A stretch of 32,777 nucleotides of DNA from Limnohabitans sp. Rim8 (lineage in GTDB: Bacteria; Pseudomonadota; Gammaproteobacteria; Burkholderiales; Burkholderiaceae_C): the NCBI GenBank assembly GCA_945875955.1, contig CAMCNQ010000004.1, positions 1 to 32,777 on the forward strand, in the 5' to 3' direction. Position 1 is the first letter of the stretch. Every line of letters begins with the position of its first letter. Positions 5,941 to 25,573 of this stretch are shown here, one piece after another. The translations under genes and the position numbers were made by a program. The notes under the pieces were generated by a model, which ran no database searches, was not told the origin of the DNA, and was given only the letters and a program-made list of their open reading frames with translations.

Positions 5941-5944
5941 TTGG

Positions 5945-6394: not shown

Positions 6395-6396
6395 GG

Positions 6397-7959: not shown

Positions 7960-7978
7960 CATGTCTCCAGTTCTAAGC

Positions 7979-8776: not shown

Positions 8777-8785
8777 GGCCGCCGC

Positions 8786-9796
8786 TCAGATCTCGACGCA
8801 GACCTTGCCGAACTGCTGGCCGCTCTCGACGAAGCGCACGGCTTCGGCCAGGTTGGCCAGCGGCAGCACGCGGTCGATCACTGGCCGTATGCCGTTGGTG
8901 CCGCAGGCGGCAATCACCTGCTCCAGGTGCTGGCGGCTGCCCACAGCGATGCCGTGGATACGCAGGCTGCCCATGGAGACGATCGGCAAGTTCACCTCCG
9001 CCTTCGCGCCGCTCACCATGCCGATCAAAGTGATCATGCCGCCCAGGCGTGTGGCCCGGATCGACTGCTGTAGCGTGCCGGCGCCGGCCGTCTCCACCAC
9101 CAGGTCCACGCCCTGGCCGGCGGTGAGCTTGCGAGCGGTCTTGCCCCACTCGGCGTCTTCACGATAGTTGATGCCGTGCTGGGCGCCCAGGTTCAGCATC
9201 TTCTCCAGCTTCTGCGCCGTGGAAGAAATGGCGATCACGCGCGCACCCGCGGCGTGGGCGAACTGCAGCGCAAACAGGGCCACGCCGCCGGAGCCTTGCG
9301 TCAACACGATGTGCTCAGGCCCGATACCGGCATGGGCGCGCACCGCGTTCCAGGCTGTCACCGCCGCACAGGGCAGGGTGGCAGCCTCTACGAAGCTCAT
9401 GCTGGCGGGAATAGGCAGCAGTGCGTCTTCGGAAAAAACGCGCAGCTCGCAGGCCACGCCGTCGTTCATGCCACCCAAGTCCTGCTGCAGGAACCGCTCA
9501 TCTGGCGGGCCGGAGAGCCATCCCGGAAAGAAGGTGTTGACCACCCAGTCCCCGGACTTGAAGCGCCGCACGCCTGTGCCTACGTCCACCACTTCGCCTG
9601 CGCCGTCCGACAGCGGGATCAGCCCGTTGGTCTTCTGCCGCGATCCGTAGCCGCCGCGCAGCGCCAGCACGTCGCGGAAGTTCAAGGAGGCAGCGCGCAG
9701 CCGCACCAGCACCTGGCCAGGGCCGGGTTGCGGATCGGGCAGGTCTTTCAATTGCAGGTTCTCGGTGCCCAGCGACTCCATCACCATGGCTTTCAT
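8786..9796 (-). CDS. Zinc-independent MDR-family NAD(P)-dependent oxidoreductase
   Basis: A 336-residue medium-chain dehydrogenase/reductase. The GroES-like N-terminal half contains SLNFRDVLALRGGYG and IPLSDGAGEVVDVG. The Rossmann half contains LTQGSGGVALFALQFAHAAG at about residues 165-185. The cysteines that bind catalytic and structural zinc in alcohol dehydrogenases are absent, so it belongs to the quinone-oxidoreductase/enoyl-reductase side of the family. In an operon full of CoA enzymes a role in reducing an enone, enoyl-CoA or quinone intermediate is plausible, but the substrate is not known. The stop is nine bases before the PaaG-like gene. Confidence 0.88.
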   Translation of the reverse strand: MKAMVMESLGTENLQLKDLPDPQPGPGQVLVRLRAASLNFRDVLALRGGYGSRQKTNGLIPLSDGAGEVVDVGTGVRRFKSGDWVVNTFFPGWLSGPPDERFLQQDLGGMNDGVACELRVFSEDALLPIPASMSFVEAATLPCAAVTAWNAVRAHAGIGPEHIVLTQGSGGVALFALQFAHAAGARVIAISSTAQKLEKMLNLGAQHGINYREDAEWGKTARKLTAGQGVDLVVETAGAGTLQQSIRATRLGGMITLIGMVSGAKAEVNLPIVSMGSLRIHGIAVGSRQHLEQVIAACGTNGIRPVIDRVLPLANLAEAVRFVESGQQFGKVCVEI

Positions 9797-9805
9797 GGAT
9801 TCTCC

Positions 9806-11917
9806 TTATTGGTTGTGGAAGCGCTGGCCGACTTCGGCGATGCGACGCAAGCGCTGCGGCGGGGTGAAGCGCGCGCCGAACTGGCTGGCGAGTTGGTCGC
9901 ACTCCGCCACGAAGCGCGCCGCACCGATGCGGTCGATATAGGCGAAGGGGCCGCCCAGGTGCGCGGGATAGCCCCAGCCCAGCACGGCGGCCACATCGCC
10001 GTCGATCGGATCCGCCAGGATGCCGTCGTCGAGGCAGCGAACGGCCTCGAGCGACTGCACGTGGAACAGGCGCCGCCGCACCGTCTCTTCGGTCAGCTCC
10101 GCGCGCCGAGGGAACAGTTCTGCCAAACCCGTCCAGATGTCGCGGCCCTGCTCGCTGTAGCCATACAGGCCCTTTCCCGCCACCTTGCCGATGCGGCCCG
10201 CCGCCAGCAGCTTCACCACCGTGTCTTCGGCGATGTTGCCGGCGTTGCCGATGCGTTGCCCGTCGCCGCGCATGGACTTGAGAATGTCGGACAGCAGCGG
10301 CAGCGTGGTCAGGTCAGCCAACGTCGCGCCACCCATCGCAAAACCGGCGTTCACCGCTGCGTTGTCGATCAGCTGCGCCGGCACGCCTTCACCGATGAGA
10401 TTCAGCGTCTCGCTGGAATAGGTGGTGACGATGCGGCTGGTGAAGAAGCCCAGGCCGTCGTTCACCACCACCGGCGTGCGTCCCAGCTGCTTCATGAAGT
10501 CGAGTGCACGCGCCAAGGTGGCGTCGTCCGTCTTCGCGGCGCGGATCACCTCGACCAGGGTCATGCGGTCCACCGGAGAGAAGAAATGCAGCCCGATCAC
10601 GCGAGCAGGCTGTGTCACATGCTGTGCCAGGCCGCCAATGGGCATGGTGGAGGTGTTGCTGGCGATGGGCACATCGGCGCCCACGGCTGCGGCCGCGCGG
10701 GCCAGCACCTCGTGCTTGATTTCAGCCTTCTCGAACACCGCTTCCAGCACGAAATCGGCTGTCGCAATGGCTGCGTAGTCGGCGCCGCCCGTGATGCGCC
10801 CCATCAACGTGTCCACCGGCATCGGCAACCGGCCCTTCTCGGCTTCCTTGTTGGCATGGGCGCGCATCGCGGCCACGCTCTTTGCGGCCGCTTCATCGTT
10901 CACGTCCAGCAGCGTCACGCGGATGCCGGCGAGTGCCGCCACATGGCCGATGCCGCGTCCCATCACGCCGCCACCCAGCACGGCCAGATGCTGCACCTTC
11001 AATGGGGGCAAACCCGCCGGACGCATCTTCATTGCGCGGGCACGGTTGACCCCGTTGAACAAGGTGCGAATCTTGTTCTTCGCGTCGCTGCCACTGGCCA
11101 GGCGCGCGAAGTGCCGCGTCTCGATCACCAGCCCTGCATCGATGCCGCGCTCCAGGCCCTGCTGCAGCACCTGGAGGATGGTGAGCGCCGCGAGGTTGTT
11201 GCCGCCGGCACTTTTCATGCTGCGGGCCCAGGCGCCCGTGAAAAACTGGCGGCCGGCCTGGGACTGCACAGAGAAGCCCGGCAGTGTGAAGCCCTTGCGG
11301 TCCCAAGGCTGGGTGGCGCCAGCGTTGGCCAGCACCCAGGCCTTGGCCGTGGCGAGCAACTGGTCGGCCGGCACCACCTCGTTGATCAGGCCCAGGGCCT
11401 TGGCGTCGGCCAGGGGCAGCCGCTTGCCTTCCAGCAGCAGCGGCGTGGCCGCAGCAATGCCTACCAGACGTGGCAGACGCTGCGTGCCCCCCGCGCCCGG
11501 CATCAGGCCGAGGGTGGCTTCGGGAAAGCCGAAGCGGGCAACAGGGTTGTCGGCGGCAATGCGGTGGTGGCAGGCCAGCGCCAGTTCGAGCCCGCCTCCC
11601 AGCGCGGTGCCGGGCATGGCTGCAGCCACCGGTTTGCCGCCTTGTTCGAGCTGGCGCAGGGCCAGCAGGAAGGGCGTAACGATGGCTTGAACGGCTTTGG
11701 GATCAGCCGCCGCCTGCAGTTCCTTCAGATCACCGCCGGCGATGAAGTCGCCCTTGTCTGAACCAATCAAGAGGCCTGTCACGCCGGGGTCGGCCAGCAA
11801 CTCGGCAGTCTTTTGCGCCAGCAGGCGGTTCAGGTCGCCCGATAGCGTGTTCACCGGGCCTTGGCAGGCGTACATCAGGGCCACGACGCCGTCGCCCAGG
11901 TCTTGTTGTCTGATCAT
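9806..11917 (-). CDS. Bifunctional enoyl-CoA hydratase / 3-hydroxyacyl-CoA dehydrogenase (FadB/FadJ-like)
   Basis: A 703-residue fusion for two consecutive beta-oxidation steps. Residues 1-190 are a crotonase domain with both catalytic glutamates (E111 in GGGLELALAC, E133 in FPEATLGLMPGAGGTQ). From about 308 there is an NAD-binding Rossmann fold (LAVLGGGVMGRGIGHVAAL), then SNTSTMPI and the catalytic histidine H444 in GLHFFSPVDRMTLVEV, then a C-terminal 3HCDH domain pair. The ORF track extends to 12544, but that extension reads through the thiolase gene in another frame and is spurious. The ATG at 11917 has only a weak GGA upstream. It sits directly after the thiolase, the standard fadA-fadB partnership, here in the order thiolase first. 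Confidence 0.93.
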   Translation of the reverse strand: MIRQQDLGDGVVALMYACQGPVNTLSGDLNRLLAQKTAELLADPGVTGLLIGSDKGDFIAGGDLKELQAAADPKAVQAIVTPFLLALRQLEQGGKPVAAAMPGTALGGGLELALACHHRIAADNPVARFGFPEATLGLMPGAGGTQRLPRLVGIAAATPLLLEGKRLPLADAKALGLINEVVPADQLLATAKAWVLANAGATQPWDRKGFTLPGFSVQSQAGRQFFTGAWARSMKSAGGNNLAALTILQVLQQGLERGIDAGLVIETRHFARLASGSDAKNKIRTLFNGVNRARAMKMRPAGLPPLKVQHLAVLGGGVMGRGIGHVAALAGIRVTLLDVNDEAAAKSVAAMRAHANKEAEKGRLPMPVDTLMGRITGGADYAAIATADFVLEAVFEKAEIKHEVLARAAAAVGADVPIASNTSTMPIGGLAQHVTQPARVIGLHFFSPVDRMTLVEVIRAAKTDDATLARALDFMKQLGRTPVVVNDGLGFFTSRIVTTYSSETLNLIGEGVPAQLIDNAAVNAGFAMGGATLADLTTLPLLSDILKSMRGDGQRIGNAGNIAEDTVVKLLAAGRIGKVAGKGLYGYSEQGRDIWTGLAELFPRRAELTEETVRRRLFHVQSLEAVRCLDDGILADPIDGDVAAVLGWGYPAHLGGPFAYIDRIGAARFVAECDQLASQFGARFTPPQRLRRIAEVGQRFHNQ

Positions 11918-11934
11918 TGGCTTCGATCCGTTCT

Positions 11935-13143
11935 TCAGATGCGTTCGATCAGTGTGGCCACGCCCAGCCCCAGGCCGGCGCACAGCGTCACGATGCCGGT
12001 ACGGGCGCCGCGGCGCTCCATTTCGTCGAGCAGCGTGCCCACCAGCATGCCGCCGGTGGCCCCGATTGGATGCCCCATCGCGATGGCGCCGCCATTGACG
12101 TTGACACGGTCGTGCGGTACCCCGGTCTCGCGCATGAATCTGAGCACCACCGAGGCGAAGGCTTCGTTCACCTCGAACAGGTCGATGTCTGCCAACTTGT
12201 AACCCCGTCTGGCAGCCGCGCGGCGCGCCGCTTCCGCAGGCGCCACCAGCATCAGGCAAGGGTCGCAGGCGGTCGTGGCTGAGGCCGTGATGCGTGCACG
12301 GGGCTTGAGCCCGAGTTGCCGGCCCACTTCTTCCGAGCCGATCAGAATCGCACTGGCACCATCCACCATGCCGGATGAATTGCCGCCGGTGTGCAGATGA
12401 TGCAGGCGATTGACCTGCGGATAGCGCTGCTTCACCGTCTCGCCAAAACCGCCCTTGGTGGCCATGTCGGCGAAGGCTGGCTTGAGCTTGCCGAGCGACT
12501 CGACAGTGGTGCCGGGGCGCACGATCTCGTCGCGCTCCAGGCAAATGGCGCCATTGAAGTCGCGCACCGGCACCACGGATTTCGCAAATCGGCCTTCGCT
12601 CCAGGCGAGGGCGGCCCGGGCCTGGGACTCGGCGGCGTAAGCGTCCACGTCATCGCGCGTGTGGCCTTCCAGCGTGCCCAGCAGGTCGGCGGCCACGCCC
12701 AGCGGCGTGAAGTTGGTCGTCGTGTTGAAGAACGCGTCACTGCCCCAGGGTCCGCCAGTGCCAGCGATGGGGATCAACGACATCATCTCCACCCCACCGG
12801 CGACCAGCAGGTCGCCGTGCCCGGCCACCACCTTCGCAGCGGCCAGGTTGACGGCGTCGAGGCCGGAGGCGCAAAAGCGGCTGATCACGCTGCCGGGAAT
12901 GGCGTCGCCCAGCCCGGCGTGCAGCGCCGAAGAACGCGCCAAGTTGGCGCCCTGGTCGTCCACGCCATCGCCCACCCCGAAGATCACGTCTTCGACAGGT
13001 AGCCGATCAAACCCGGTGCGGTCGCGCAGGGCGGTGAGCACGGTGGCCCCGAGATCGATGGGCGAGAGGGTGTGCAGCGCCCCGCTTGAGCGAGCGGCGC
13101 CACGCGGCGTGCGCACAGCATCGTAAATAAAAGCTTCAGACAT
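11935..13143 (-). CDS. Acetyl-CoA C-acyltransferase (thiolase)
   Basis: A 402-residue degradative thiolase that cleaves a 3-ketoacyl-CoA to acetyl-CoA plus a shortened acyl- or aroyl-CoA. The nucleophile is C91 in SRFCASGLDA, the histidine is H358 in AMGHPIGATG, and the second cysteine is C388 in LCAGLGLG. The last motif differs from the usual CGGGGQG/CVGGGMG but keeps the cysteine. It is the first gene of the operon ending with the thioesterase. No Shine-Dalgarno precedes the ATG; instead a TATGGT hexamer lies six bases upstream, which suggests a leaderless transcript driven by the 20-bp operator at 13177-13196. Confidence 0.93.
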   Translation of the reverse strand: MSEAFIYDAVRTPRGAARSSGALHTLSPIDLGATVLTALRDRTGFDRLPVEDVIFGVGDGVDDQGANLARSSALHAGLGDAIPGSVISRFCASGLDAVNLAAAKVVAGHGDLLVAGGVEMMSLIPIAGTGGPWGSDAFFNTTTNFTPLGVAADLLGTLEGHTRDDVDAYAAESQARAALAWSEGRFAKSVVPVRDFNGAICLERDEIVRPGTTVESLGKLKPAFADMATKGGFGETVKQRYPQVNRLHHLHTGGNSSGMVDGASAILIGSEEVGRQLGLKPRARITASATTACDPCLMLVAPAEAARRAAARRGYKLADIDLFEVNEAFASVVLRFMRETGVPHDRVNVNGGAIAMGHPIGATGGMLVGTLLDEMERRGARTGIVTLCAGLGLGVATLIERI

Positions 13144-13149: not shown

Positions 13150-13196
13150 ACCATAGAGAAAACCCTAGACAGGTGCTGTCGTCCGCAACTACGACA
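13150..13196 (-). promoter_or_regulatory. Operator A1 plus -10 of the thiolase operon
   Basis: On the + strand bases 13177-13196 read TGTCGTCCGCAACTACGACA, a dyad with arms TGTCGT/ACGACA. On the minus strand, 21 bp separate it from the hexamer TATGGT (13155-13150), and the thiolase ATG begins six bases after that. The same geometry occurs at 14916, 20118 and 23117. I interpret the dyad as an activator box overlapping the -35 region. Confidence 0.68.
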
Positions 13197-13244
13197 TGTC
13201 CTGTTTTGCTACGACAGCGCAACCCCGGATAGGGCCCCTACTAT
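13197..13244 (+). promoter_or_regulatory. Operator A2 and candidate -10 for the first tctC
   Basis: Bases 13197-13216 (TGTCCTGTTTTGCTACGACA) are a second copy of the 20-bp element, abutting A1 head to tail. A candidate -10, TACTAT, lies at 13239-13244, 22 bp downstream, one base more than at the other promoters. This would drive the tctC gene that starts at 13290 with a conventional leader and Shine-Dalgarno. Two adjacent boxes between divergent genes fit one box per direction. Confidence 0.6.
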
Positions 13245-13289: not shown

Positions 13290-14264
13290 ATGAAACTGCT
13301 CTGGACACGCCGCGCACTCGGCATCGTGATCGCTGCGGCCGCGCTGACCGCTGGCGCGCAGGAGGCTTACCCCAACCGTCCCGTCAAACTCGTGGTCGGG
13401 TTTGCGCCCGGCGGCGGCGGCGACAGCGTGGCCCGACTGGTGGCTGAGCACATGGGGCGCACGCTCAAGCAACAGGTGGTCGTCGAGAACCGGCCGGGTG
13501 CCGGCACCACGCTGGCACCTGCTGCCGTGGCCGCTGCAGCGCCGGATGGCTATACCCTGCTGCTGGCGCCTGACTCCGTGTTCGGCCCCGACAAAGTGAT
13601 GTGGGCGCCCAACGCCAAATACGACGAGACCAGCTTCACGCCCATCAGCAAGCTGGCCAGCACCTTTTTCGTGCTGGCGGCGAACAAAGACTTCGGTGTG
13701 CGCACGGTCGCCGAGCTGATGGCCAAGGCCCGCGCCGACAAGGGCGAGTTGTTCGTGGCGTCGACGCAGGGGCTCTATCCGGCGCTGATCATGGAGAACT
13801 TCAACCGGGCTTCCGGTCTCAAGCTCAACCAGGTCCCCTACAAGGGCGGTGCGCCATCGGTGCTGGCCGTGGTGTCAGGCGAGGTGCCGGTGACGTTCGC
13901 GGTGCCGAGCTCCGTGATGCCCATGGTCAAGGACGGCAAGCTCGTGGCATTGGCGGTCACCAGTGCCAACCGCTCTGCGCTGACTGAGGGGGTGCCCACG
14001 CTGGCGGAATCGGGCATGCGGGGCTTTGACGTCGGCTACTGGTTCGGCCTGGCCGGACCGGCGGGCTTGCCAGCGGACATCACCCAGAAGCTGTTCGATG
14101 CCGCCTCTTCGGCGCTGGCGGACCCTGCCGTGCGCGCCCGCCTGAACACCCTGGGCTACGAGCCCGCGCCTTCGAAGTCGAGCGCGGAATTCCGGGCACA
14201 GGCCATCCAGGACGGCGCTGCGCTGCGCAAGATCGTGGAGACGCTGGGCATCAAGGGCAACTGA
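13290..14264 (+). CDS. TctC/Bug-family periplasmic solute receptor (first copy)
   Basis: A 324-residue secreted binding protein. The signal peptide runs through ALGIVIAAAALTAGAQ, then the family start AYPNRPVKLVVGFAPGGGGD and VVVENRPGAGTTLAPAAVA, typical of the tripartite tricarboxylate receptor (Bug) family. AAGGAGA lies six bases before the ATG. No tctA/tctB membrane genes are present, which is common for these receptors in Burkholderiales; it may work with a permease elsewhere or as a sensor. It is divergent from the thiolase operon and precedes the decayed aldehyde dehydrogenase, so the ligand is probably a pathway substrate. Confidence 0.92.
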   Translation: MKLLWTRRALGIVIAAAALTAGAQEAYPNRPVKLVVGFAPGGGGDSVARLVAEHMGRTLKQQVVVENRPGAGTTLAPAAVAAAAPDGYTLLLAPDSVFGPDKVMWAPNAKYDETSFTPISKLASTFFVLAANKDFGVRTVAELMAKARADKGELFVASTQGLYPALIMENFNRASGLKLNQVPYKGGAPSVLAVVSGEVPVTFAVPSSVMPMVKDGKLVALAVTSANRSALTEGVPTLAESGMRGFDVGYWFGLAGPAGLPADITQKLFDAASSALADPAVRARLNTLGYEPAPSKSSAEFRAQAIQDGAALRKIVETLGIKGN

Positions 14265-14915: not shown

Positions 14916-14962
14916 CGTCGTAGTTGCAAACGACAACTTCGCGATGCCATTGTGTCTATCGT
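14916..14962 (+). promoter_or_regulatory. Operator C plus -10 of the O-demethylase-like gene
   Basis: Bases 14916-14935 read CGTCGTAGTTGCAAACGACA, the reverse orientation of the island element (its complement matches A1 at 17 of 20 positions). After 21 bp comes TATCGT at 14957-14962, the identical hexamer at the identical distance as at operator B. The downstream start codon at 14988 leaves roughly a 19-nt leader. Confidence 0.65.
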
Positions 14963-14987: not shown

Positions 14988-16319
14988 ATGGCACCTATCC
15001 ATCCACAACGCCACGCCATCGACCGCACCGTTTCGTGGGGCAAGGACGAATACACCAACTGGATGGACGAGAGCATGTCGTGGAAGACGACCTGCTACGT
15101 CGGCGACTGGAGCTGGTTGCCGGAGCTGAACGTTCGCGGCCCCGACGCCGAACGCCTGCTCTGCGACTTCACAGTCATCAGCCTGGCGGCTCAAGAGATC
15201 GGTCAGGCCAAGCATGCGATCTTCTGCAGCCACACTGACAAGGTGCTGGGCGAAGGCGTGCTGGCGCGCCTGGGTCCGCAAGAGTTCGAGCTCAATGCGT
15301 CCGGTCCGGTCAATCTTTGGCTGCAATACAACCTCGCGCGCGGCGGCTACAACGCAGTGGCTGAACTGCGGCGTACCAAGACCAAGCTGCAGGTCTCGGG
15401 GCCGAATGCGCTGTACCTGCTGGAAAAGCTCGCGCGGGAAAGCCTGCGCGACATCAAGTTCATGCGCTTTCGCGTCGTGCCACTGGCAGGCTGCGACGTC
15501 GCCTTCCTGCGACAGGGCATGGCGGGCGAGATCGGCTTCGAGCTGCATGGCCCGATCGCGCAGCTGGACCAGATGCTGAATGCCATCCTGGAAGCCGGAC
15601 AGGCGTTCGGCATCCGCCGCCTCGGCTCCCGCACAGCGCTCATCAATCACCTGGAAGCCGGCTTCCCCACGGTGAACCTGGACTATCTCCCCGCCACTGC
15701 CGACACGGCGGAGCGCGAGTTCTTCGATCGGTACCACACGCAGCTGGCCCCGATCGACACCATCGAGTGGCGCGTGGGCGTGGCCCGCGTGCTCAAGGTG
15801 CGCGGCAGCTTCGAGGGCGACGACATCACCGCTTGGTACCGCAGCCCCGTGGAGCTCGGGTGGGCGCGCAACATCAAGTTCGACCACAACTTCCATGGCC
15901 GCGCGGCACTGGAGGCCGAAGTCGCTGCACCCCGGAGCAGCATCGTCGCGCTGGTCTGGAATGCCGACGACGTGCAGGAGGTCTACGCCTCGCACTTCGA
16001 CGGCAGTCCACAGCCCTGCGAGTACATGGACATGCCGCGTTCGCTGCTGGTGTGCACCTATGCCAGCCGGGTGCTGGCAGGCGGCCGGGACGTCGGGGTG
16101 GCCACCTCACGCGGCTACAGCTTCTACTACCGCAAGATGATCTCGCATGGCGTGATCGACCTCGGCTACGCCCTGCCGGGCACTGAAGTCACGGTTATCT
16201 GGGGCGAGCCGGGCAAGCGGCAAAAGGAGATTCGCGCCGTCGTCCACCCCTACCCTTTCAAGCGCAACGCGAACCGCGAGACGGACCTCGCGGCGCTGCC
16301 CGCGCGCCCTAACGCCTGA
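14988..16319 (+). CDS. LigM/DesA-like tetrahydrofolate-dependent aryl O-demethylase (GcvT family)
   Basis: A 443-residue aminomethyltransferase-fold protein. The GcvT-type folate domain fills most of the length (NLWLQYNLARGGYNAVAEL, GEIGFELHGPIAQLDQMLNA, LEAGFPTVNLDYLPA), and a C-terminal barrel domain ends with SRGYSFYYRKMISHGVIDLG and GTEVTVIWGEPG. This long form resembles LigM/DesA, which move the methyl group of vanillate- or syringate-type methoxyaromatics to tetrahydrofolate, rather than the shorter glycine-cleavage T protein; no gcvH/gcvP are nearby. The ORF track starts at 14775, but the upstream part overlaps the promoter; ATG at 14988 fits the operator geometry. There is no clear Shine-Dalgarno. 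A dimethylsulfoniopropionate- or sarcosine-type demethylase is a less likely alternative. Confidence 0.8.
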   Translation: MAPIHPQRHAIDRTVSWGKDEYTNWMDESMSWKTTCYVGDWSWLPELNVRGPDAERLLCDFTVISLAAQEIGQAKHAIFCSHTDKVLGEGVLARLGPQEFELNASGPVNLWLQYNLARGGYNAVAELRRTKTKLQVSGPNALYLLEKLARESLRDIKFMRFRVVPLAGCDVAFLRQGMAGEIGFELHGPIAQLDQMLNAILEAGQAFGIRRLGSRTALINHLEAGFPTVNLDYLPATADTAEREFFDRYHTQLAPIDTIEWRVGVARVLKVRGSFEGDDITAWYRSPVELGWARNIKFDHNFHGRAALEAEVAAPRSSIVALVWNADDVQEVYASHFDGSPQPCEYMDMPRSLLVCTYASRVLAGGRDVGVATSRGYSFYYRKMISHGVIDLGYALPGTEVTVIWGEPGKRQKEIRAVVHPYPFKRNANRETDLAALPARPNA

Positions 16320-16340
16320 CCAAAGATGGGGGCAAGAACC

Positions 16341-16895: not shown

Positions 16896-18275
16896 CTACA
16901 AATCCAAAGCCGAAAGATCGCCGGCCGTCTCCAGCGCCCCTATTCGCGCTGCAGCGTTTTGTGCCTGTGCCCGCGTCAGCGGGTCTGTGGCATAGCCCGC
17001 GCAATCGATGAACTTGTCCAGTAACTGCTCATCGCTCATGGGCCGCAGCGGATCGCCCAATGGCCGGTCCACGACTTGAAACAAGGTACGGCCATCGCGC
17101 AAGCTCAGCCGCAGTGTGCCGCGCAACGCATCTTCCAGGCCACCGGTGCTGCGCACCTCGCAGCCAAAGCGCTGTGCCAGGGCCAGCACCTCCGGGTGCG
17201 CCAATGCCTCGGCCGAGAAATCGGCCAGCGTCAGCTGCCCATGCACCAGCGCCGCTGCGGTAGTGAAAGGGATGCTGAACTTCGCGTCATTGGCGGTCTG
17301 CGGGCGCTGCTTCTGGGCAGCCGGCGTGCACAGCATGCCGAATGTGGCGCTCACCTCGACCGTTACTTGCTCGATCTCGTGCGCTTGCAGGGCATGCGCT
17401 TCGCGCAGGATGAGCGCGGCCTCGACAAAAGGATGCGTGCCCCGACACGAGGGCCAGGGTTTGAAGCTGAGCTTGTCCACTTCCCACGAGTGGCCCAGGC
17501 CGCACGTGAGCCGCTCGGCGTCGAAGCGGCCGCCGGTGTACATGGCAAACAGGCCGTGGTCACCCTCGATCGGCCGGTCGTAGCACTGCACGCCGCGGCT
17601 GGCCAGCAGCACGGCGGTGATGGCCGCCTGAGCCGCCAACCCATCGCGGATTTCGCGCATGTGCGAGGGCGCATAACCGAAGAAGCCCTTGCTGCAGGTG
17701 ACCTGGCTGAACGCGAGGGCGAAAGCCTCCACCATCTGCGGCGCATCCAGCCCGAGCAGGCGGCCGGCCGCCGCGACCGCGCCACAGGTACCCAGCAGCG
17801 GACGGATCACCCAGCCGCGCGGCGTGTCGTCGTCGCCCATCGCCATGCCGAGGCGGCAGGTCAGATCGGCGCCAACCGCCATGGCGGTGATGAACTCGGC
17901 GCCACCGACGTTGCCGCGCAGGTGCGCCGCGGCCAGCGCCGCGGGCAAGGCTGTGCCATTCGGGTGCACCAGGCCAGCGTCGTGCGTGTCCTCGTAGTCC
18001 AGCGCGTGCGACATGGCGCCGTTGACAAGGGCCGCCACCGCAGGCGCTGCGCTGAGTTTGTGGCCCAGGATGCGGCAGGGGCCGCTGCCGCTGACGCGCG
18101 CAAGGTCGACGAAGGCCGCCGTGACCTGGCCCTGCGTGCCTGCTGCCAGGGCCACGCCGAATGCGTCGACCAGGCTGCGCTTGACCGAGGCCACCGTGCC
18201 CTGCGAGAGCTCGTCGAAGCGCACGCCCACCGCATGGCGCGCGAGCGCGAGCGACAGGTCGATGTGCTCACTCAT
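16896..18275 (-). CDS. MmgE/PrpD family protein
   Basis: A 459-residue member of the MmgE/PrpD family (2-methylcitrate dehydratase, cis-aconitate decarboxylase and related lyases/isomerases). Recognisable segments are MSHALDYEDTHDAGLVHPNG near residue 90, LGTCGAVAAAGRLLGLDAPQ, SKGFFGYAPSHMREIRDGLA, and FKPWPSCRGTHPFVEAALIL in the middle. No prpB/prpC genes accompany it, so a methylcitrate role is unlikely; it may dehydrate or isomerise a pathway acid. The track starts 48 codons upstream; the ATG at 18275 gives the normal family N-terminus (SEHIDLSLALARHAV). It lies about 200 bp downstream of the marR-like gene on the same strand and may share its transcript. Confidence 0.87.
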   Translation of the reverse strand: MSEHIDLSLALARHAVGVRFDELSQGTVASVKRSLVDAFGVALAAGTQGQVTAAFVDLARVSGSGPCRILGHKLSAAPAVAALVNGAMSHALDYEDTHDAGLVHPNGTALPAALAAAHLRGNVGGAEFITAMAVGADLTCRLGMAMGDDDTPRGWVIRPLLGTCGAVAAAGRLLGLDAPQMVEAFALAFSQVTCSKGFFGYAPSHMREIRDGLAAQAAITAVLLASRGVQCYDRPIEGDHGLFAMYTGGRFDAERLTCGLGHSWEVDKLSFKPWPSCRGTHPFVEAALILREAHALQAHEIEQVTVEVSATFGMLCTPAAQKQRPQTANDAKFSIPFTTAAALVHGQLTLADFSAEALAHPEVLALAQRFGCEVRSTGGLEDALRGTLRLSLRDGRTLFQVVDRPLGDPLRPMSDEQLLDKFIDCAGYATDPLTRAQAQNAAARIGALETAGDLSALDL

Positions 18276-18476
18276 CTTTCTGTCCAGTGCTGAGACGGTC
18301 TTGCGCAGCGTGGCGTGCCGGCTGCGAAGCTGCGGCTCCGCCCGCGCCTTGTTGCACGCGTCGAAGCGCTTCTGCAGCACATCGTCTGACTGGCCGAGGG
18401 CGCGCGCCTTGTGGCCCAAGCCGAACCGGCGAAATCCGCAGAGGCCCCAGGCTGTCCGTTCACCTGCATGGCGCGC

Positions 18477-19031
18477 TCAGTCAGCGAGCAGCTTGCGCAG
18501 CAAGCGGGTGAGCTGTTCGCGTTCGGATTCCGGCAAGGGCCTGCAGATGCGCGTCTCGTGCTCGCGCACGGCAGCTTCGTAGGCCACCAGCCTGGCCTGG
18601 CCGCGCGCCGAAAGCGCCAGCGCCCCAATGCGCTTGTCGCTGGGAATGGGGTAGGTCTCCACCAGCCCCATATCGACCAGGTGATTGACGATTTTCAGCG
18701 CCGCCGGTCTGGCGATGTCCAGCGCTCGGGCGATGTCCACCTGCCGCACCCCCGGGTTGGCACCAATGATCGACAACGCGGTGAAGCGTGCGGGGGTGAT
18801 CTCGTCCTCCTCAAGGGTGACCAGGAAGCTCGCGTAGATCTTGTTGTCCAGACGGCGCACCAAGTAGCCGAAGTAGGACGCCATGTGGTCGACGTCCAAA
18901 TTAGACGGTGCCGAGTAGGCGTACTGGTCGATCACGCCGCCGTGGCCGACCATGGTGCGCTTGCGCGTCGCGGCAGTGGCTGCCGCAGCGGCGCGCAGCC
19001 CCTTGCGAACGGCCGGGCGGTTGTCATTCAT
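18477..19031 (-). CDS. MarR-family transcriptional regulator
   Basis: A 184-residue winged-helix regulator. After a basic, alanine-rich N-terminal tail (RKGLRAAAAATAATRKR) comes the MarR fold: LGYLVRRLDNK-type dimer helix (here YFGYLVRRLDNKIYASFLVT), recognition region GVRQVDIARALDIARPAALK, and the wing ETYPIPSDKRIGALALSARG. MarR proteins usually repress and respond to aromatic acids or their CoA esters. The ATG at 19031 has AAGGA seven bases upstream and is preferred over the 20 codons before it. It follows the luxR-like gene by 22 bp and is clearly in the same operon. Confidence 0.88.
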   Translation of the reverse strand: MNDNRPAVRKGLRAAAAATAATRKRTMVGHGGVIDQYAYSAPSNLDVDHMASYFGYLVRRLDNKIYASFLVTLEEDEITPARFTALSIIGANPGVRQVDIARALDIARPAALKIVNHLVDMGLVETYPIPSDKRIGALALSARGQARLVAYEAAVREHETRICRPLPESEREQLTRLLRKLLAD

Positions 19032-19053
19032 GGACAGGTCCTTGGGCATGGCA

Positions 19054-19950
19054 TCAAGCGATGTGCACCAGCTTGGTGCTGTTCTGGACATGATGGTTCG
19101 GCAGGGTGACCCGGGCGGGTGCTGCAGTCGGGTTCATGGCGCGCCAGCGCAGGACTGTGGCAAACAGTTCCTGACGCGAGGCCACTCCGAGCTTTTCGTA
19201 GGCGCGCATGCGGTACGTGGCCACGGTGGTGGCGCGCAGCTTCAGGTCTTGGGCAATGCGGTTGACAGTGACACCGTCGAGGATGCGCGTGAGAACCTCG
19301 CGTTCCCGCCCTGTCAGCCGCGCGCCGAGTTCCGCCACGCCTTCGCTAACGCTGCCGCGCAAGGAGGCCATGCCATCTGTGTCGGTTGCGTAATGCCGGG
19401 CGACGCAGCGGGCAAGCAGTGTCGCCACGCCGATCAGACCCTCGATCTGGCGGGCGTCAAAGGGGCCGTGCGCCGAGCCGCGGTACAAGTGGGCCGTGAC
19501 CCAACACGATTCGCCGGTGCGCACCAGCAGGGTCAGGCGGTCCACCAGCCCGATCGCTTCCATGCACTCCCGGCGGTATGAGCCGATGGGCATTTCTTCG
19601 ACTGTCTGGCGGGCGACCAGCGTCACGCCCACTGGCCCCGCCGCGGGCTTGCGGTCGATCACCTGGCGCAAGCTGTCCTGGCTAGCGAACTCGCGCGCAT
19701 GCTGTGCGCCGGAGTGGAACGCCACCCAGGGCCCGCCTTCGGCGGCCCAGGAGAGCAGGCGCGGATTGCGCTGGGCTTCGTGGGCGAACACCGTACACTG
19801 CTTGGCCTCGAGCACGGGCCGGACCGCCGCGAGGATGCAGGACGCCAGCGACTCCGGGTCCTGGCTGCCGATCGCGTCGACCAGCGCCGCGACAACTTCC
19901 GCGTCCACCATCCGGTGCGGCGAAGACGGTTCCACCACCCATGTCTGCAT
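19054..19950 (-). CDS. LuxR-family transcriptional regulator
   Basis: A 298-residue protein with a C-terminal LuxR-type helix-turn-helix (residues about 212-267: RLTGREREVLTRILDGVTVN, then RIAQDLKLRATTVATYRMRA). The first 200 residues look like a sensory domain of GAF-like size but show no motif I can name; it is neither a receiver domain nor an obvious acyl-homoserine-lactone pocket. The start at 19950 has AGAAGGAG upstream. It is divergent from the feruloyl-CoA-synthetase-like gene. Because LuxR-type proteins use 20-bp dyads centred near -42, it is my leading candidate for the activator that binds the five island boxes. Confidence 0.88.
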   Translation of the reverse strand: MQTWVVEPSSPHRMVDAEVVAALVDAIGSQDPESLASCILAAVRPVLEAKQCTVFAHEAQRNPRLLSWAAEGGPWVAFHSGAQHAREFASQDSLRQVIDRKPAAGPVGVTLVARQTVEEMPIGSYRRECMEAIGLVDRLTLLVRTGESCWVTAHLYRGSAHGPFDARQIEGLIGVATLLARCVARHYATDTDGMASLRGSVSEGVAELGARLTGREREVLTRILDGVTVNRIAQDLKLRATTVATYRMRAYEKLGVASRQELFATVLRWRAMNPTAAPARVTLPNHHVQNSTKLVHIA

Positions 19951-20117: not shown

Positions 20118-20164
20118 TGTCCTGTCTAAGCACGACAGGTCGGGTGCCGCGCTTGGGCTAGCAT
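20118..20164 (+). promoter_or_regulatory. Operator D plus -10 of the feruloyl-CoA-synthetase-like gene
   Basis: TGTCCTGTCTAAGCACGACA at 20118-20137 is followed after 21 bp by TAGCAT (20159-20164); the ATG at 20171 lies six bases further on. The box also contains a tighter dyad CCTGTC/GACAGG. The geometry is identical to operators A1 and B relative to their genes. Confidence 0.68.
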
Positions 20165-20170
20165 GTGAGC

Positions 20171-22048
20171 ATGACCACATTGGACAGCGCGCCGTATCGC
20201 CGTATTGCTCTTGGCTCACGCCAAGTCCACGCAGAGCATCGCGCCGACGGCAGCATCTTGGTGCGGTCCGTCGAACCCCTGGCGTCCTACCCGCGCAAGT
20301 TGACGGATCGCCTGCAAGAGGCAGCGCGCGAGTTCCCGGACCGTCTCTTCCTGGCGATACGGGACCGCAGCAGCCCAGATCGCTGGCGCGAACTGCACTA
20401 TGGCGAAGCCTGGGAGCGCGTGCAGCGAATCGGCCAGGCCTTGCTGGACCGCGGCCTGTCGCAGCACAGGCCCGTGGCCATCCTCAGCGGCAGCAGCATC
20501 GAGCACGCACTGCTCGCGCTGGCCGCCATGCACGTGGGCGTGCCGCACTGCGCCATCACCCCCGCTTATTCGCTGCTTTCCGACGACCACGTGAAGCTGC
20601 GCCATGTGCTCGACCTGCTAAAGCCCGGCCTGGTGTTCGCGGACGACGCTGCCGCGTTCGGCCGGGCCATCGACCGCACTGTGCCCGACGGCGTGGAACT
20701 GGTGCATTCCTTACGCGCATCCCCGGGGCGAGCGAGCACGCCATTCGAGCGTCTGCTCGCGCAGCCCGCTGGCCCGGACCTTGCCGCAGCCAGCGCCAGA
20801 GTTGCGCCCGAGTCGGTGGCCAAGGTCCTGTTCACCTCGGGCTCCACTGGCTTGCCCAAGGGCGTCATCAATACCCAGCGCATGGTGGCCTGTAACCAAC
20901 AGATGTTCGTACAGTCCATGCCGTGCATCACCCAGCAGCCGCTGGTGATCTTGAGCTGGCTGCCCTGGCACCACACATCCGGCGGCAACCAGATGATGGG
21001 GCTGACCCTGCACTGCGGCGGAACGTTCTACGTCGACGACGGCAAGCCGCTTGTGGGCGAAGTGGACAAGACAATTGACAACCTGCGGGAGATCGCGCCC
21101 ACCGTCTATTTCAGCGTGCCGCGCGGCTTTGCGGCGCTGGTGCCTGCCCTGCGCGCTGACGCGGACCTGCGCGCGAATTTCTTCTCCCGGCTTTCGCTGC
21201 TGTACTACTCGGGTTCCGCACTCGCCGCATCGCTGGTGAAGGATCTCGACGAACTGGCTGTGCAGACCATCGGTGAACGCATCCCCATGATGTCCGGCTA
21301 TGGTGCCACCGAGACGGCGCCCGCCGCCGTGGGTGCCAACTGGCTCACCAGCGAGACCGGCTTGGCGGGTCTGCCCCTTCCTGGTTGTGAATTGAAACTG
21401 GCACCGGTGGAATCGGGCAAGTACGAGGCCCGGCTGCGCGGACCAAACGTGACGCCGGGCTACTGGGGCCAGCCGGCGTTGAGCGCCAAGCTGTTCGATG
21501 AAGAGGGCTTTGCGCGCATGGGCGACGCGCTGTCGTTCGTCGTGCCCGGAGAGATCACGCAGGGGCTGGCCTTCGACGGCCGCATCGCCGAAGACTTCAA
21601 GCTGAGCACCGGCACCTTCGTCGGCGTAGGCACTCTGCGTGCGAAGCTGGTTCATGCGGGCGATGGCCTGTTCCTCGATGCGGTGATCGCCGGGGAAGGC
21701 CGCGATGAGGTCTGCGCGCTGGTGGTCGTCGATGTGGCGGTGTGCAGTGCCACCTGCGGATTGCCCAACGGTACGCCCCTGAGTGCCCTTGTGGTGCATC
21801 CTGCTTTGCGTCTGCGCCTGCAGACAGTGATCGACGACCTCGCCGCGCGGGCGACTGGCAGCTCCACTTATGTGGCGCGGGCCATTTTGCTCGGCGATCC
21901 ACCGAATGGTGCCGATGGAGAGCTGACCGACAAGGGCTCGATCAATGCGCGTGCGTTCCTGTCCAACCGGCCCACCTTGCTGGACCGCCTGTATGCGCAG
22001 CCCGCGGACGCGCAGGTGTGCGTCGCCCGCACGGGCGGCCGCCGCTAG
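20171..22048 (+). CDS. fcs: Feruloyl-CoA synthetase-like aryl-CoA ligase
   Basis: A 625-residue adenylate-forming ligase of the Fcs type, longer than ordinary acyl-CoA synthetases. Family features: ADGSILVRSVEPLASYPRKL near the N-terminus, VLFTSGSTGLPKGVINTQRM at residues about 219-238, SGYGATETAPA, the atypical hinge GLAFDGRIAEDFKLSTGTFV, and a terminal TDKGSINARA with the expected lysine. Members activate hydroxycinnamic acids such as ferulate. The track uses GTG at 20165; the ATG two codons later sits six bases after a TAGCAT hexamer and lacks a Shine-Dalgarno, in line with a leaderless message. The true substrate may differ from ferulate, since the typical partner vanillin dehydrogenase is missing. 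Confidence 0.87.
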   Translation: MTTLDSAPYRRIALGSRQVHAEHRADGSILVRSVEPLASYPRKLTDRLQEAAREFPDRLFLAIRDRSSPDRWRELHYGEAWERVQRIGQALLDRGLSQHRPVAILSGSSIEHALLALAAMHVGVPHCAITPAYSLLSDDHVKLRHVLDLLKPGLVFADDAAAFGRAIDRTVPDGVELVHSLRASPGRASTPFERLLAQPAGPDLAAASARVAPESVAKVLFTSGSTGLPKGVINTQRMVACNQQMFVQSMPCITQQPLVILSWLPWHHTSGGNQMMGLTLHCGGTFYVDDGKPLVGEVDKTIDNLREIAPTVYFSVPRGFAALVPALRADADLRANFFSRLSLLYYSGSALAASLVKDLDELAVQTIGERIPMMSGYGATETAPAAVGANWLTSETGLAGLPLPGCELKLAPVESGKYEARLRGPNVTPGYWGQPALSAKLFDEEGFARMGDALSFVVPGEITQGLAFDGRIAEDFKLSTGTFVGVGTLRAKLVHAGDGLFLDAVIAGEGRDEVCALVVVDVAVCSATCGLPNGTPLSALVVHPALRLRLQTVIDDLAARATGSSTYVARAILLGDPPNGADGELTDKGSINARAFLSNRPTLLDRLYAQPADAQVCVARTGGRR

Positions 22049-22067: not shown

Positions 22068-22562
22068 TCATACCACCTGCCAGAAGCGGAACACCGAGTG
22101 GTCGGTTTGCCGGTTGGCCGTGCCCACAAACACCGTGCGGTTCATCCAGTCGTGATCGCCCACGGGCGCCTCGAAGAACGGGGACAAGCGCATGTAGTAT
22201 TCGCTGGAATCCACCGGGTCCAGGCGCTCCATGCGGGCCGTGACCTCCGGCGTGGCGTAGCGGAAGCCGCGGTTCTTTACCAGGATCAGCGTGCCGTCGT
22301 CGGCCTGCACCATGTAATTGGCAGTGAACTCTACCGCTCCGTTGGGCCAGTACATCGGGTAGTCACCACCGCTGTGCGGCACCACTTTGCCATTGAGTTT
22401 CGGTCCCTTCACCTCGCCGCCGACGACGCCGGTGTAGCCGCGGATGGAGCCGTTGGGCAGGGTGCCCATCTTCACCCGCAGGGAAAACTGCACCCGAAAG
22501 GCAAAGGCAAATTCGAGCTTGGGCGCGGGAAGAGTCTCAAAATTGAAGTCGGAAGCGGTCAA
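22068..22562 (-). CDS. DUF3237 family protein (first of a tandem pair)
   Basis: A 164-residue protein of the DUF3237 (UPF0311) family. Typical segments are LEFAFAFRVQFSLRVKMG, GGEVKGPKLNGKVVPHSGGD, NGAVEFTANYMVQADDGTLI and the end SPFFEAPVGDHDWMNRTVFV. The fold is predicted to be a small beta barrel and no catalytic activity is established that I can cite. The start is TTG at 22562 with GAGG about eight bases upstream. It lies 35 bp after its paralogue and converges on the ligase gene, whose stop is 19 bp away. No signal peptide, so it is cytoplasmic. Confidence 0.85.
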   Translation of the reverse strand: MTASDFNFETLPAPKLEFAFAFRVQFSLRVKMGTLPNGSIRGYTGVVGGEVKGPKLNGKVVPHSGGDYPMYWPNGAVEFTANYMVQADDGTLILVKNRGFRYATPEVTARMERLDPVDSSEYYMRLSPFFEAPVGDHDWMNRTVFVGTANRQTDHSVFRFWQVV

Positions 22563-22597
22563 GGCAAGGTCCTCAGTTGGGATCAGGTTAGTCGAGG

Positions 22598-23083
22598 CTA
22601 GAGCACCGTGTAGTAGCGGATCACGTTGCCAATTTCCAGGCGTGCGCCCACTCCGATGAACAGGTGGCGGGTGAGCCAGTCGTGCGGGCCCGGCGGCGTC
22701 TCAAACGTGGGCGAGCAGCGGAAGTAATAAGACGCGGGGTCGACGCTCATCCCGGGTGTCAGCTTGTAGAGCTTCTCCATCACGTCGGGCGGTCCATGGC
22801 GGTAGCCGCGGTTCTGAATGTAGATGAGCGTGCCGTCGTCTTCCTGCATGAAGTAGCGGGCATCGAAGCAGAAAACGCCGTCGGTGCGCACGTGCGGGAA
22901 CTCACCCCCGTGGTTGAGCACCTTGCCGCGCAGCTTTGGACCTTCGAACTGGCCGTCGACCACCGGCACCGACAGCCGCGCCCCTCCCACCGGTGGGTTC
23001 TCCATACGAAGGCGCGGTGCCAGCGTGAGCCGCGTCTCGAAAGCAAACTCCAGGCGCGGGAAGAACGGGTCATCAATGGTCAT
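22598..23083 (-). CDS. DUF3237 family protein (second of a tandem pair)
   Basis: A 161-residue paralogue of the previous gene, with parallel motifs at matching positions: LEFAFETRLTLAPRLRM, DGQFEGPKLRGKVLNHGGEF, RYFMQEDDGTLIYIQNRGYR and SPTFETPPGPHDWLTRHLFI. The two are clearly related but well diverged, so the duplication is old or both came in together. The ATG at 23083 has no Shine-Dalgarno; TATCGT lies six bases upstream, in the same geometry as the thiolase and ligase genes. It is divergent from the second tctC. Confidence 0.87.
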   Translation of the reverse strand: MTIDDPFFPRLEFAFETRLTLAPRLRMENPPVGGARLSVPVVDGQFEGPKLRGKVLNHGGEFPHVRTDGVFCFDARYFMQEDDGTLIYIQNRGYRHGPPDVMEKLYKLTPGMSVDPASYYFRCSPTFETPPGPHDWLTRHLFIGVGARLEIGNVIRYYTVL

Positions 23084-23089: not shown

Positions 23090-23136
23090 ACGATATCAGC
23101 GCCTGCGCCGCAGGGCTGTCCTATTCGGCTACGACA
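23090..23136 (-). promoter_or_regulatory. Operator B plus -10 of the DUF3237 pair
   Basis: The + strand reads TGTCCTATTCGGCTACGACA at 23117-23136. On the minus strand 21 bp follow before TATCGT (23095-23090), and six more bases lead to the DUF3237 start codon. Confidence 0.68.
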
Positions 23137-23150
23137 ACGCACTTGTCGTA
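23130..23150. repeat. Perfect inverted repeat overlapping operator B
   Basis: Arms TACGACAA and TTGTCGTA are perfectly complementary around a 5-base spacer (CGCAC). It shares the ACGACA half with operator B and may be a second binding site on the side facing the tctC gene at 23213. Confidence 0.55.
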
Positions 23151-23212
23151 CCTGGATAGGACGGCGGCCGCTTGCGGCGGGTGCTATCTTGCCCAACAAA
23201 CCCGAGGAGACC

Positions 23213-24205
23213 ATGCCCATGCGCCGCTACCTGCTCACCATTCTTGCCGCCGGTGCGCTGGCCACGCTGGCCGGCCCAGCTGCCCACGCGCAACGGCTGC
23301 CCGCCGACAAGCCCTTGCGCATCGTCGTGCCCTATGCCCCTGGCGGCACCACCGACCTGCTTGCGCGTCAGATCGGCACGCGCTTGGCCGACATCCTTGG
23401 CCAGCCGGTGGTGATCGAGAACAAGCCGGGCGGGGGTGGCACCATCGCTGCCGCGTACGTGACTGCCGCGCCAGCCGACGGGCTGACGCTGATGCTGGGC
23501 GGCATGGAGCTGGCCACCGCGCCTGCCCTGATAGGCGACAAGGGCATTGCGGCCGCCCGCGAGCTCACGGGCGTGGCATCGCTCACGCTCGGGCCGCTGG
23601 TGCTGGTGGTGAATCCGCAGAAGACCCCTGCGAAGACACTGTCTGAACTGCTGGTGGCCGCCCGTGCGCAGCCCGGCGGCATGACCTACGCTTCCGCCGG
23701 CAATGGCAACGTGACACACCTGTTCGGCGAGATCTTCAAGCGCTCAGCCAGGATCGACGTCCAGCACGTGCCGTACCGCGGCGCCGCCCCGGCGTTGACG
23801 GATCTGCAGTCGGGCCAGGTGAACATGATGGTGGCCGGCACCGCGAGCGTGCGCCAGCTCGTGGCAAACGGAAATCTGCGCGCGCTGGCCATAACGGGCC
23901 GCGATGCAGCGGCCGCCGGCTTTCCCAATGTGCCGACATTCGAGCAGGCCGGCATGCCGATGCCGGATACCGATTTCGGCGCATGGACGGGCCTGTTCGC
24001 GCCAAAGAACGCGCCCCGCGACGCGATCCGGCAGCTCAACCAGGCCGTCAACACCGCCCTCAATCTGCCGGAGTTGCGCGCCCAGCTGGCCGCCATGGGG
24101 CTGACTGCGGAACCGTCGAGCCCGGAGGCGCTGCAGACGCTGCTGACCAGCCAGATCCAGGCCTGGACGCAGCTGATCCAGCAATCCGGCATCAAGGTGG
24201 AGTGA
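23213..24205 (+). CDS. TctC/Bug-family periplasmic solute receptor (second copy)
   Basis: A 330-residue secreted receptor. The signal peptide is YLLTILAAGALATLAGPAAH with cleavage near AHA. The mature part carries LRIVVPYAPGGTTDLLARQI, PVVIENKPGGGGTIAAAYV and HVPYRGAAPALTDLQSGQVN, all hallmarks of the family. GAGGAG precedes the ATG at 23213; the second ATG two codons later has a more usual spacing and is an alternative. It is followed after two bases by the enoyl-CoA hydratase gene, so receptor and enzyme are co-expressed. It is a distinct paralogue of the receptor at 13290. Confidence 0.92.
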   Translation: MPMRRYLLTILAAGALATLAGPAAHAQRLPADKPLRIVVPYAPGGTTDLLARQIGTRLADILGQPVVIENKPGGGGTIAAAYVTAAPADGLTLMLGGMELATAPALIGDKGIAAARELTGVASLTLGPLVLVVNPQKTPAKTLSELLVAARAQPGGMTYASAGNGNVTHLFGEIFKRSARIDVQHVPYRGAAPALTDLQSGQVNMMVAGTASVRQLVANGNLRALAITGRDAAAAGFPNVPTFEQAGMPMPDTDFGAWTGLFAPKNAPRDAIRQLNQAVNTALNLPELRAQLAAMGLTAEPSSPEALQTLLTSQIQAWTQLIQQSGIKVE

Positions 24206-24207
24206 CG

Positions 24208-24984
24208 ATGGGCCAGGTGCAGCTTTGCGTGGAGGCGGGCGTCGCTCGGATCACACTCGACGCGCCATCCATGAACGCGCTGGACCGCGACATGGTCACT
24301 CGGCTCGGCCTGATCCTGGCGTCTTGCCAGGCGGACGATACGGTGCGGGCCCTCGTGTTGCAGGGTGCGGGGAGCCATGCCTTCAGCGCCGGCTCCGACT
24401 TGGCCGAGCTGCGTGGCCTGATCGCCCAGGGCCACGACGCCTTGGCGGCCAAGTTCACTCAAGACGACACGGTGTTCAGCGCGCTCGCCCACTTTCCCAA
24501 GCCGACCGTGGCGGCGATAGAAGGGGCCGCGGTGGGTGGCGGCCTGGAATTGGCCGCGTGCTGCGACCTGATCGTCTGCTCGCGCAACGCGAAGCTGGCG
24601 CTGCCCGAGATTCGGCTGGGCGTGTTCCCGGGCAGTGGTGGCACAGTGCGCGTCACGCGGCGCATCGGGCCGGGGCGAGCCCGCCGCATGATGTTGCTGG
24701 GCGACGCCATCGAAGCGCAGGCAGGCCTGGACTGGGGGCTGGTCGATTGGCTGTGCGAAGCTGGCGAGGCCGCCAGCGTGGCCATGGCGCTGGCCACGCG
24801 GCTGGCGTCCGGGCCTAGGCAGGCGCTTGAGGGCTGCAAGGCCTCTGTCAATGCAGCGATGGACCAGGACGAACGCGCGGCGCTCGCATTGGCACGGCAA
24901 TGGGCCGTCGACCTGGGGTTCAGCGAGGACCTGGCCGAGGGGCTGCGGGCTTTCGACGAGAAGCGGCGGCCAGTGTTCCGGTGA
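24208..24984 (+). CDS. Enoyl-CoA hydratase/isomerase family protein
   Basis: A 258-residue crotonase. The oxyanion motif is FSAGSDLAELRG, and both classical glutamates are kept (E114 in GGGLELAACCD, E134 in LPEIRLGVFPGSGG), so unlike the PaaG-like protein at 7979 it should be a true hydratase, or a hydratase/aldolase. Next to a feruloyl-CoA-synthetase-like gene, a role in hydrating (and possibly cleaving) a cinnamoyl-CoA ester is attractive, but it does not obviously match the Ech/FCA hydratase-lyase subgroup. The track's longer ORF begins inside tctC; ATG at 24208 is two bases after the tctC stop. Confidence 0.9.
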   Translation: MGQVQLCVEAGVARITLDAPSMNALDRDMVTRLGLILASCQADDTVRALVLQGAGSHAFSAGSDLAELRGLIAQGHDALAAKFTQDDTVFSALAHFPKPTVAAIEGAAVGGGLELAACCDLIVCSRNAKLALPEIRLGVFPGSGGTVRVTRRIGPGRARRMMLLGDAIEAQAGLDWGLVDWLCEAGEAASVAMALATRLASGPRQALEGCKASVNAAMDQDERAALALARQWAVDLGFSEDLAEGLRAFDEKRRPVFR

Positions 24985-25292: not shown

Positions 25293-25573
25293 CCCATCAC
25301 TTCTGGGTGTAAATCTGATCAAAGCTGCCGCCATCGGCAAAGTGGGCTTTGTCGGCTTTTTCCCAGCCGCCAAATGCCTGCTCGATGGTGAACAAGTTCA
25401 GCTTGGGAAATTGCTTGGCGTACTTGGCTTGGGCCTTGGCCGAGATCGGGCGGTAAAAGTGTTTGCCCGCCAGGTCCTGGCCTTCGTCGGTGTAGAGGTA
25501 TTCCAGATAGGCCTGGGCCACAGCGCGGGTGCCTTTGCGGTCGACGTTTTTGTCGACCACGGTCACGGCAGGC
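25293..25573 (-). repeat. Right copy of the island-flanking direct repeat
   Basis: This is the 3' end of the intact sulfate-binding gene. It matches the left remnant (5785-5940) in the same orientation apart from 125 bp (25384-25508) missing on the left. Identity is about 98% in the distal 91 bp and about 89% in the inner 65 bp. Confidence 0.85.

Follow-up and report, generated by a model that had tools for sequence, protein, structure and literature searches.

The two DUF3237 proteins encoded in the stretch of Limnohabitans sp. Rim8 DNA analysed here (32,777 nucleotides in full, henceforth the window), termed A and B, are probably two separate, catalytically complete decarboxylating lyases with a calycin-like fold, comparable to PhcF, PhcG and PinX and of complementary specificity, which would feed the acquired catabolic regulon in which their genes lie. 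As counterparts of a known pair that removes CO2 from lignin-derived dimers, they are likely to act as two individual lyases and not as one complex. By analogy with PhcF, PhcG and PinX, each would decarboxylate a 4-hydroxyaryl carboxylic acid with a beta C-O bond: the phenolate would expel the beta-oxygen, or open a cyclic ether ring, and so form a p-quinone methide, after which CO2 would leave and an aryl-conjugated C=C would be left. The specificities of A and B could be complementary with respect to enantiomers or to two related substrates, as those of PhcF and PhcG are for phenylcoumaran acids. In the same scheme the regulon would be repressed by a MarR protein, TctC receptors would import the acids, an O-demethylase would strip their methoxyl groups, and a feruloyl-CoA synthase together with a beta-oxidation set would degrade the side chain.

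Both genes are on the minus strand in a head-to-tail arrangement, with B (22598..23083; 161 aa, ATG start) heading the unit and A (22068..22562; 164 aa, TTG start) following downstream after a gap of 35 bp. Each protein matches the Pfam DUF3237 profile PF11578 over its entire length (1-149 of 149 positions), with 138.3 bits for B and 123.2 bits for A against a gathering score of 24 bits. The two are 43% identical over 154 aa, hence "diverged paralogues", as the adjoining pair had been described in the original prediction, is the right label. The same genome has a third DUF3237 gene, on a different contig (C56), whose product is about 33% identical to A or B. The gene for a feruloyl-CoA synthase-like AMP-forming ligase (fcs, 20165..22048, plus strand; PF00501, and PRK12582 with 734 bits), whose orthologue in Variovorax is annotated as feruloyl-CoA synthase, is convergent with A and ends 19 bp from the end of A. 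On the other side, a gene for a TctC solute-binding protein (tctC2, 23213..24205, plus strand; PF03401, 206 bits) is divergent from B and is followed by a member of the enoyl-CoA hydratase/isomerase family (ech2, 24208..24984, plus strand; PF00378, 195 bits).

The structure prediction that had been proposed as a check gave, for each protein, a confident single-domain barrel (AlphaFold2 pLDDT 95.0 for B and 92.3 for A). Foldseek searches with both models recovered the solved DUF3237 structures 4pux, 3g7g and 3c5o at E values of about 1e-13 to 1e-14 with TM scores of 0.8-0.95, so that the modelled A and B show the calycin-like β-barrel of these crystal structures. The three UPF0311/DUF3237 structures share Pfam family and fold with A and B (E about 1e-13), but they have no assigned function, are about 30% identical, and are set beside A and B by family and fold rather than by tree. 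One of them, 3c5o, is RPA1785; by its gene number it would be a neighbour of the coumarate genes RPA1786 and RPA1787, and rpa1786 encodes a hydratase acting on hydroxycinnamates (PMC12366328). The next Foldseek matches were PhnH (6jjs and 6jjt, E about 1e-7) and two Aspergillus DUF3237 entries; dirigent proteins appeared at chance level and with B alone (E 0.06). A fold related to phenolic acid decarboxylase (PadC) was considered and set aside, since Pfam and NCBIfam yielded no PAD family and the top 50 Foldseek matches contained no PAD structure. Both proteins retain the family-invariant residues Y77, D83, Y120 and W136 (B numbering), along with E12 and R122, and on account of this neither looks degenerate.

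In the literature searched, where few papers name DUF3237, we found nothing on this cluster. The description of the family as uncharacterised nevertheless no longer holds in full, since PhcF, PhcG and PinX are DUF3237 or DUF3237-homologous decarboxylases. The adjacent genes SLG_09360/09370 encode PhcF and PhcG, which convert DCA-CC stereoselectively to a stilbene by decarboxylation; PinX likewise removes CO2 from lariciresinoate and opens a ring in doing so (PMC12997858). PinX carries a DUF3237 domain and is 42% identical to PhcG and 38% to PhcF (PMC12607616). In the genome of Sphingobium sp. SYK-6, two adjacent DUF3237 genes at 0.997 Mb (locus L105) were assigned to phcG and phcF by position and adjacency, and a gene at 0.763 Mb was likewise assigned to pinX by its coordinates. 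B is 45% identical to SYK-6 PhcG and 51% to SYK-6 PinX, and A is 42% identical to SYK-6 PhcF.

Phylogenetic analysis with IQ-TREE under a profile-mixture model, from which the longest branches had been left out, recovers one clade of A and PhcF (97/94) and another of B, PhcG, PinX and their kin (97/90), and places both proteins with the PhcF/PhcG/PinX-type decarboxylases against other DUF3237 proteins. Topologies holding A and B together (AU p = 0.011) or PhcF and PhcG together (AU p 0.026) were rejected. In a tree with seven more sequences, the A-PhcF side (95/85) includes one N. capsulatum and one Roseinatronobacter protein, and a union of A and B is again rejected (p = 0.0007). In a tree that retained the longest branches, the join of A and PhcF lacks resolution. 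The AU tests reject a recent local tandem duplication as the source of the pair. Instead, as judged from these trees, A and B are two ancient lineages that split long before the cluster arose.

The likeness to SYK-6 extends to gene order: in both, tandem DUF3237-type genes lie in the same phcG-phcF order and strand within an aromatic catabolic context. Unlike the SYK-6 system, the window cluster encodes neither GMC oxidases nor a lignostilbene dioxygenase, but a feruloyl-CoA synthase, TctC receptors and a beta-oxidation set, with a shared operator of the MarR type; further, SYK-6 belongs to the Sphingomonadales, whereas the window derives from the Burkholderiales. PinX (of N. rhizosphaerae, with SLG_07290 as the SYK-6 homologue) falls in the same DUF3237 sub-clade as B, but it is encoded by a lone gene of the pinoresinol pathway without a CoA-ligase regulon. 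The nearest relative of A outside the Burkholderiales (N. capsulatum, 50%) is encoded directly before a carotenoid oxygenase gene of the lignostilbene-dioxygenase family. Additionally, a plasmid of Roseinatronobacter sp. S2 (L213, 1443-18949) carries three DUF3237 genes, two GMC oxidoreductases, a carotenoid oxygenase, three aldehyde dehydrogenases, peptide-type ABC transporters and a MarR regulator, which would be the layout expected for a phenylcoumaran pathway; the third DUF3237 protein of this cluster groups with PhcF. With aromatic-dimer decarboxylases as the nearest characterised relatives of A and B, the earlier suggestion of two small enzymes, for example lyases, acting on an aromatic intermediate gains support. 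Identities of 40-50%, however, fix neither substrate nor reaction, as PhnH, which has the same fold, performs a hydroalkoxylation.

The partners of the phc pathway, i.e., a GMC oxidoreductase and a lignostilbene dioxygenase, which are features of the pathway and not of the enzyme, were not found in the window cluster by Pfam and NCBIfam searches. In the metagenome-assembled genome (MAG) USSF (L045), one GMC gene is located at a distance of about 8 kb from B. RPE65-family proteins are absent from two cluster-bearing genomes (Burkholderiales bacterium 8X and MAG USSF), which makes a stilbene product unlikely as an obligatory outcome, and this candidate was dropped. The window's own genome has five RPE65/lignostilbene-dioxygenase-type genes on contigs C92, C279, C81 and C143, two of them in tandem on C92, which suggests a wider catabolism of lignin dimers.

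The B-A unit is bound to the surrounding catabolic genes by a 20-bp palindrome, TGTCSTNNNNNNCTACGACA, which has three exact occurrences (13177, 13197 and 23117), a single-mismatch site at 14916 (minus strand) and two sites with two mismatches, at 20118 and at 23144 (minus strand); a pattern search of the rest of the 3.0-Mb draft assembly found a single further site at 0-1 mismatch. Two copies lie ahead of B: TGTCCTATTCGGCTACGACA (23117..23136, plus strand; exact pattern match, 28.4 bits), between the start of B and tctC2, and a second, inverted copy, CGTCCTATCCAGGTACGACA (23144..23163, minus strand), in the same divergent promoter region. Of the remaining sites, recovered like the inverted copy by both the pattern and a position weight matrix (PWM), TGTCGTCCGCAACTACGACA (13177..13196, plus strand) occupies the divergent promoter of the thiolase operon and tctC1 and is abutted by TGTCCTGTTTTGCTACGACA (13197..13216, plus strand), TGTCGTTTGCAACTACGACG (14916..14935, minus strand) precedes a DesA/LigM-like gene, and TGTCCTGTCTAAGCACGACA (20118..20137, plus strand) precedes fcs. 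Each unit is thus preceded by operators: the beta-oxidation operon together with tctC1, the gene of the DesA/LigM type, fcs, and the B-A pair together with tctC2.

The PWM, built from the window sites, detects sites of 16-26 bits before the orthologous units in six related clusters, those of Variovorax PBL-E5, Variovorax SRS16, Xenophilus aerolatus, Burkholderiales bacterium 8X, Ramlibacter RYN_569 and MAG USSF; the maxima in shuffled sequence were mostly below 11 bits, with one of 15.2 (these operator statistics combine the pattern search with locus scans). With a site before each unit, near absence of the pattern elsewhere in the genome and conservation in six clusters, the genes form a single regulon, and the claim that A and B share their 20-bp operator with the catabolic enzymes is borne out. 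The MarR-family regulator encoded in the cluster (18477..19091, minus strand; PF12802/PF01047, with a weak match of 66 bits, below the cut-off, to the Saro_0803 family NF053777) is a candidate for the operator-binding protein. Such an arrangement recalls the CouR/FerC-regulated hydroxycinnamate operons, with their MarR-type repressor, palindromic operators and hydroxycinnamoyl-CoA synthetase (PMC4737184), but the window operator sequence was matched to none known and its binding protein is here a putative one.

The other members of the cluster are in keeping with a regulon of this kind. A beta-oxidation-type operon (5945..13143, minus strand), identified by NCBIfam matches and syntenic in Variovorax, encodes a thiolase, a FadJ-like protein, an MDR dehydrogenase, an enoyl-CoA hydratase, an acyl-CoA ligase and a PaaI-like thioesterase. 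It is divergent from the gene for a further TctC solute-binding protein (tctC1, 13290..14264, plus strand; PF03401, 184 bits). A predicted THF-dependent aryl O-demethylase-like protein of the DesA/LigM/GcvT family (14988..16319, plus strand) scores 238 bits with the NCBIfam DesA model and 235 bits with LigM, both below the equivalog cut-offs. An MmgE/PrpD family protein (16896..18419, minus strand; PF03972/PF19305) and a LuxR-type HTH regulator (19054..19950, minus strand; PF00196), the latter conserved in the cluster, complete the set. Between tctC1 and the DesA-like gene (14330-14815), coding remnants such as IEKRSIFNHALLEPVGLGVAITPWNSP have, from their translation alone, the look of a decayed aldehyde dehydrogenase, and the reading frames 3' of the DesA-like gene (16320-16890) are broken, possibly decayed genes. 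In Variovorax and Ramlibacter an operator-preceded Rieske oxygenase, with a VanA C-terminal domain in Variovorax, takes the place of the DesA/LigM-like gene. The presence of two unrelated kinds of aryl O-demethylase under the same operator points to methoxylated aromatics as substrates. The cluster is probably an acquired regulon for plant aromatics or methoxylated phenylpropanoids.

The cluster is patchy in the genus, being found among 149 relatives in the window's own genome and in one sister species (G344) only. It is flanked by two sulfate-binding-protein genes which are near neighbours in many relatives (e.g., G054, G039, G027, G018, G014), and on this ground the cluster, of roughly 20 kb, has the appearance of an inserted island. 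Direct repeats flank it (window 5773-5944 and 25281-25577; 91 bp at 98% and 69 bp at 88%), the left copy being a fragment of the right sulfate-binding-protein gene. The duplicated piece and the flanking genes are consistent with acquisition as an island.

Comparison with the six other syntenic clusters, from Burkholderiales genomes or plasmids (seven with the window), allows the relationship between A and B to be assessed. Orthologues of A (69-77%) and of B (78-90%), together with operators, are present in all six. The B-A tandem, in contrast, recurs in just one, that of Ramlibacter. In MAG USSF, A closes the beta-oxidation operon and is convergent with B. On the two Variovorax plasmids and in 8X and Xenophilus, 2.6-16 kb separate A from B, and A has a divergent TctC gene and operators of its own (L046 7270 and 7314; L158 16636 and 16681; L159 1995; L160 4502). 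In Xenophilus and Pseudooceanicola, B immediately precedes fcs. Tandem adjacency can accordingly be discarded as a conserved trait, and co-membership of the regulon alone is conserved. Beside a Variovorax cluster, a second CoA-type catabolic cluster with an NTF2-like protein, SDRs, acyl-CoA ligases and TctC was observed (L040, 17434-28459). In the sister species G344 (C140; L204, 250-1150), B and most of tctC2 have been deleted in place, A (88% identical) is kept directly behind two operators and ech2 is kept on the opposite side, albeit in an incomplete MAG (85%), so that a copy of B may lie elsewhere.

These patterns bear on the proposal that A and B form an obligate heteromer, i.e., one enzyme of two subunits, which we regard as highly improbable. 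The two genes do co-occur in every complete syntenic cluster and adjoin each other in the window and in Ramlibacter. However, in five of the seven clusters A is not the next gene after B on the same strand, and in four of them it stands well apart from B with an operator of its own; G344 retains A while B has been deleted; PhcF and PhcG each act singly; and the split between the A and B lineages long predates the cluster. The original prediction, which had offered a heteromer as one option, is therefore disfavoured on this point.

A further possibility, which we entertain with some reserve, is that A and B are two independent regulon enzymes that do not decarboxylate, such as an isomerase, a hydratase, or a former or opener of lactone or ether rings acting on a phenolic intermediate of a CoA pathway. 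Such a role would fit the CoA dependence of the cluster and its lack of an obligatory stilbene dioxygenase. It also finds a precedent in PhnH, the herqueinone hydroalkoxylase of Penicillium herquei, which adds a phenol to an alkene in a ring-closing reaction where a glutamate serves as the acid (PMC8704240). PhnH is likewise a small phenol-handling barrel, related to A and B in fold (TM about 0.7 at the above E value) and by a weak sequence match (E 0.005). It differs in being fungal and biosynthetic and in forming a ring where A and B would open one, and it is about 20% identical; its ring closure can, by analogy, be viewed as a chemical cousin of the ring opening by PhcF and PhcG. Against this possibility, all three characterised bacterial relatives, which fall on both sides of the A/B split, are decarboxylases, making decarboxylation the parsimonious ancestral activity of both clades.

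That one or both proteins are non-catalytic, serving as lipocalin-like carriers or as sensors of pathway compounds, is suggested by the calycin-like barrel and by the lack of an assigned function for most DUF3237 structures. It appears very unlikely in light of their close kinship with enzymes and the family-invariant polar residues kept in both. Under the preferred reading of A and B as two decarboxylating lyases, a more specific and rather speculative proposal, to which we give little credence, is that the cluster specifies a CoA-dependent route, so far undescribed, for ferulate dehydrodimers or similar phenolics that cross-link plant walls. An example would be the 8-5 cyclic diferulate, apparently the same compound as DCA-CC. 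A and B would here decarboxylate both enantiomers with ring opening and the feruloyl-CoA synthase would activate the remaining cinnamate side chain, dispensing with the sphingomonad route through a GMC oxidase and an obligatory lignostilbene dioxygenase.

The original prediction had further placed DUF3237 firmly in a catabolic context, and had proposed neighbourhood statistics with CoA ligases as a test. The outcome is divided. DUF3237 is present in 29 of 250 genomes of the order. Among 21 neighbourhoods of DUF3237 genes outside the A/B clade (20 from the order and that of the C56 paralogue of the window's genome), none has a homologue of the window's acyl- or aryl-CoA ligases within about 7 kb, as compared with 3 of 14 control stretches. 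The commonest neighbours of these other lineages are TctC receptors, ABC and MFS transporters and FAD oxidoreductases, with AMP-binding and enoyl-CoA-hydratase families absent from among them; genes for TctC receptors were often seen close by within the order (L168, L172, L173, L175, L179). The A and B lineages, on the other hand, are tightly associated with a feruloyl-CoA synthase and an aryl O-demethylase. DUF3237 is thus unsupported as a general marker of aryl-CoA catabolism in the order, and the catabolic link, which stands for A and B through their membership of the regulon, belongs to the sub-clades of A/B, PhcF/PhcG and PinX and not to the family as a whole.

Confining the aromatic link to one sub-clade guards against over-annotation of DUF3237 proteins as agents of aromatic catabolism. 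Within that sub-clade, a family of "unknown function" would be tied to concrete chemistry in the Burkholderiales, with the PhcF-like and PhcG-like lineages representing an old pair of paralogues that has been retained together in two different pathways. In the present case the pair would serve a compact regulon, partly plasmid-borne in soil Variovorax, that is probably devoted to methoxylated plant phenolics.
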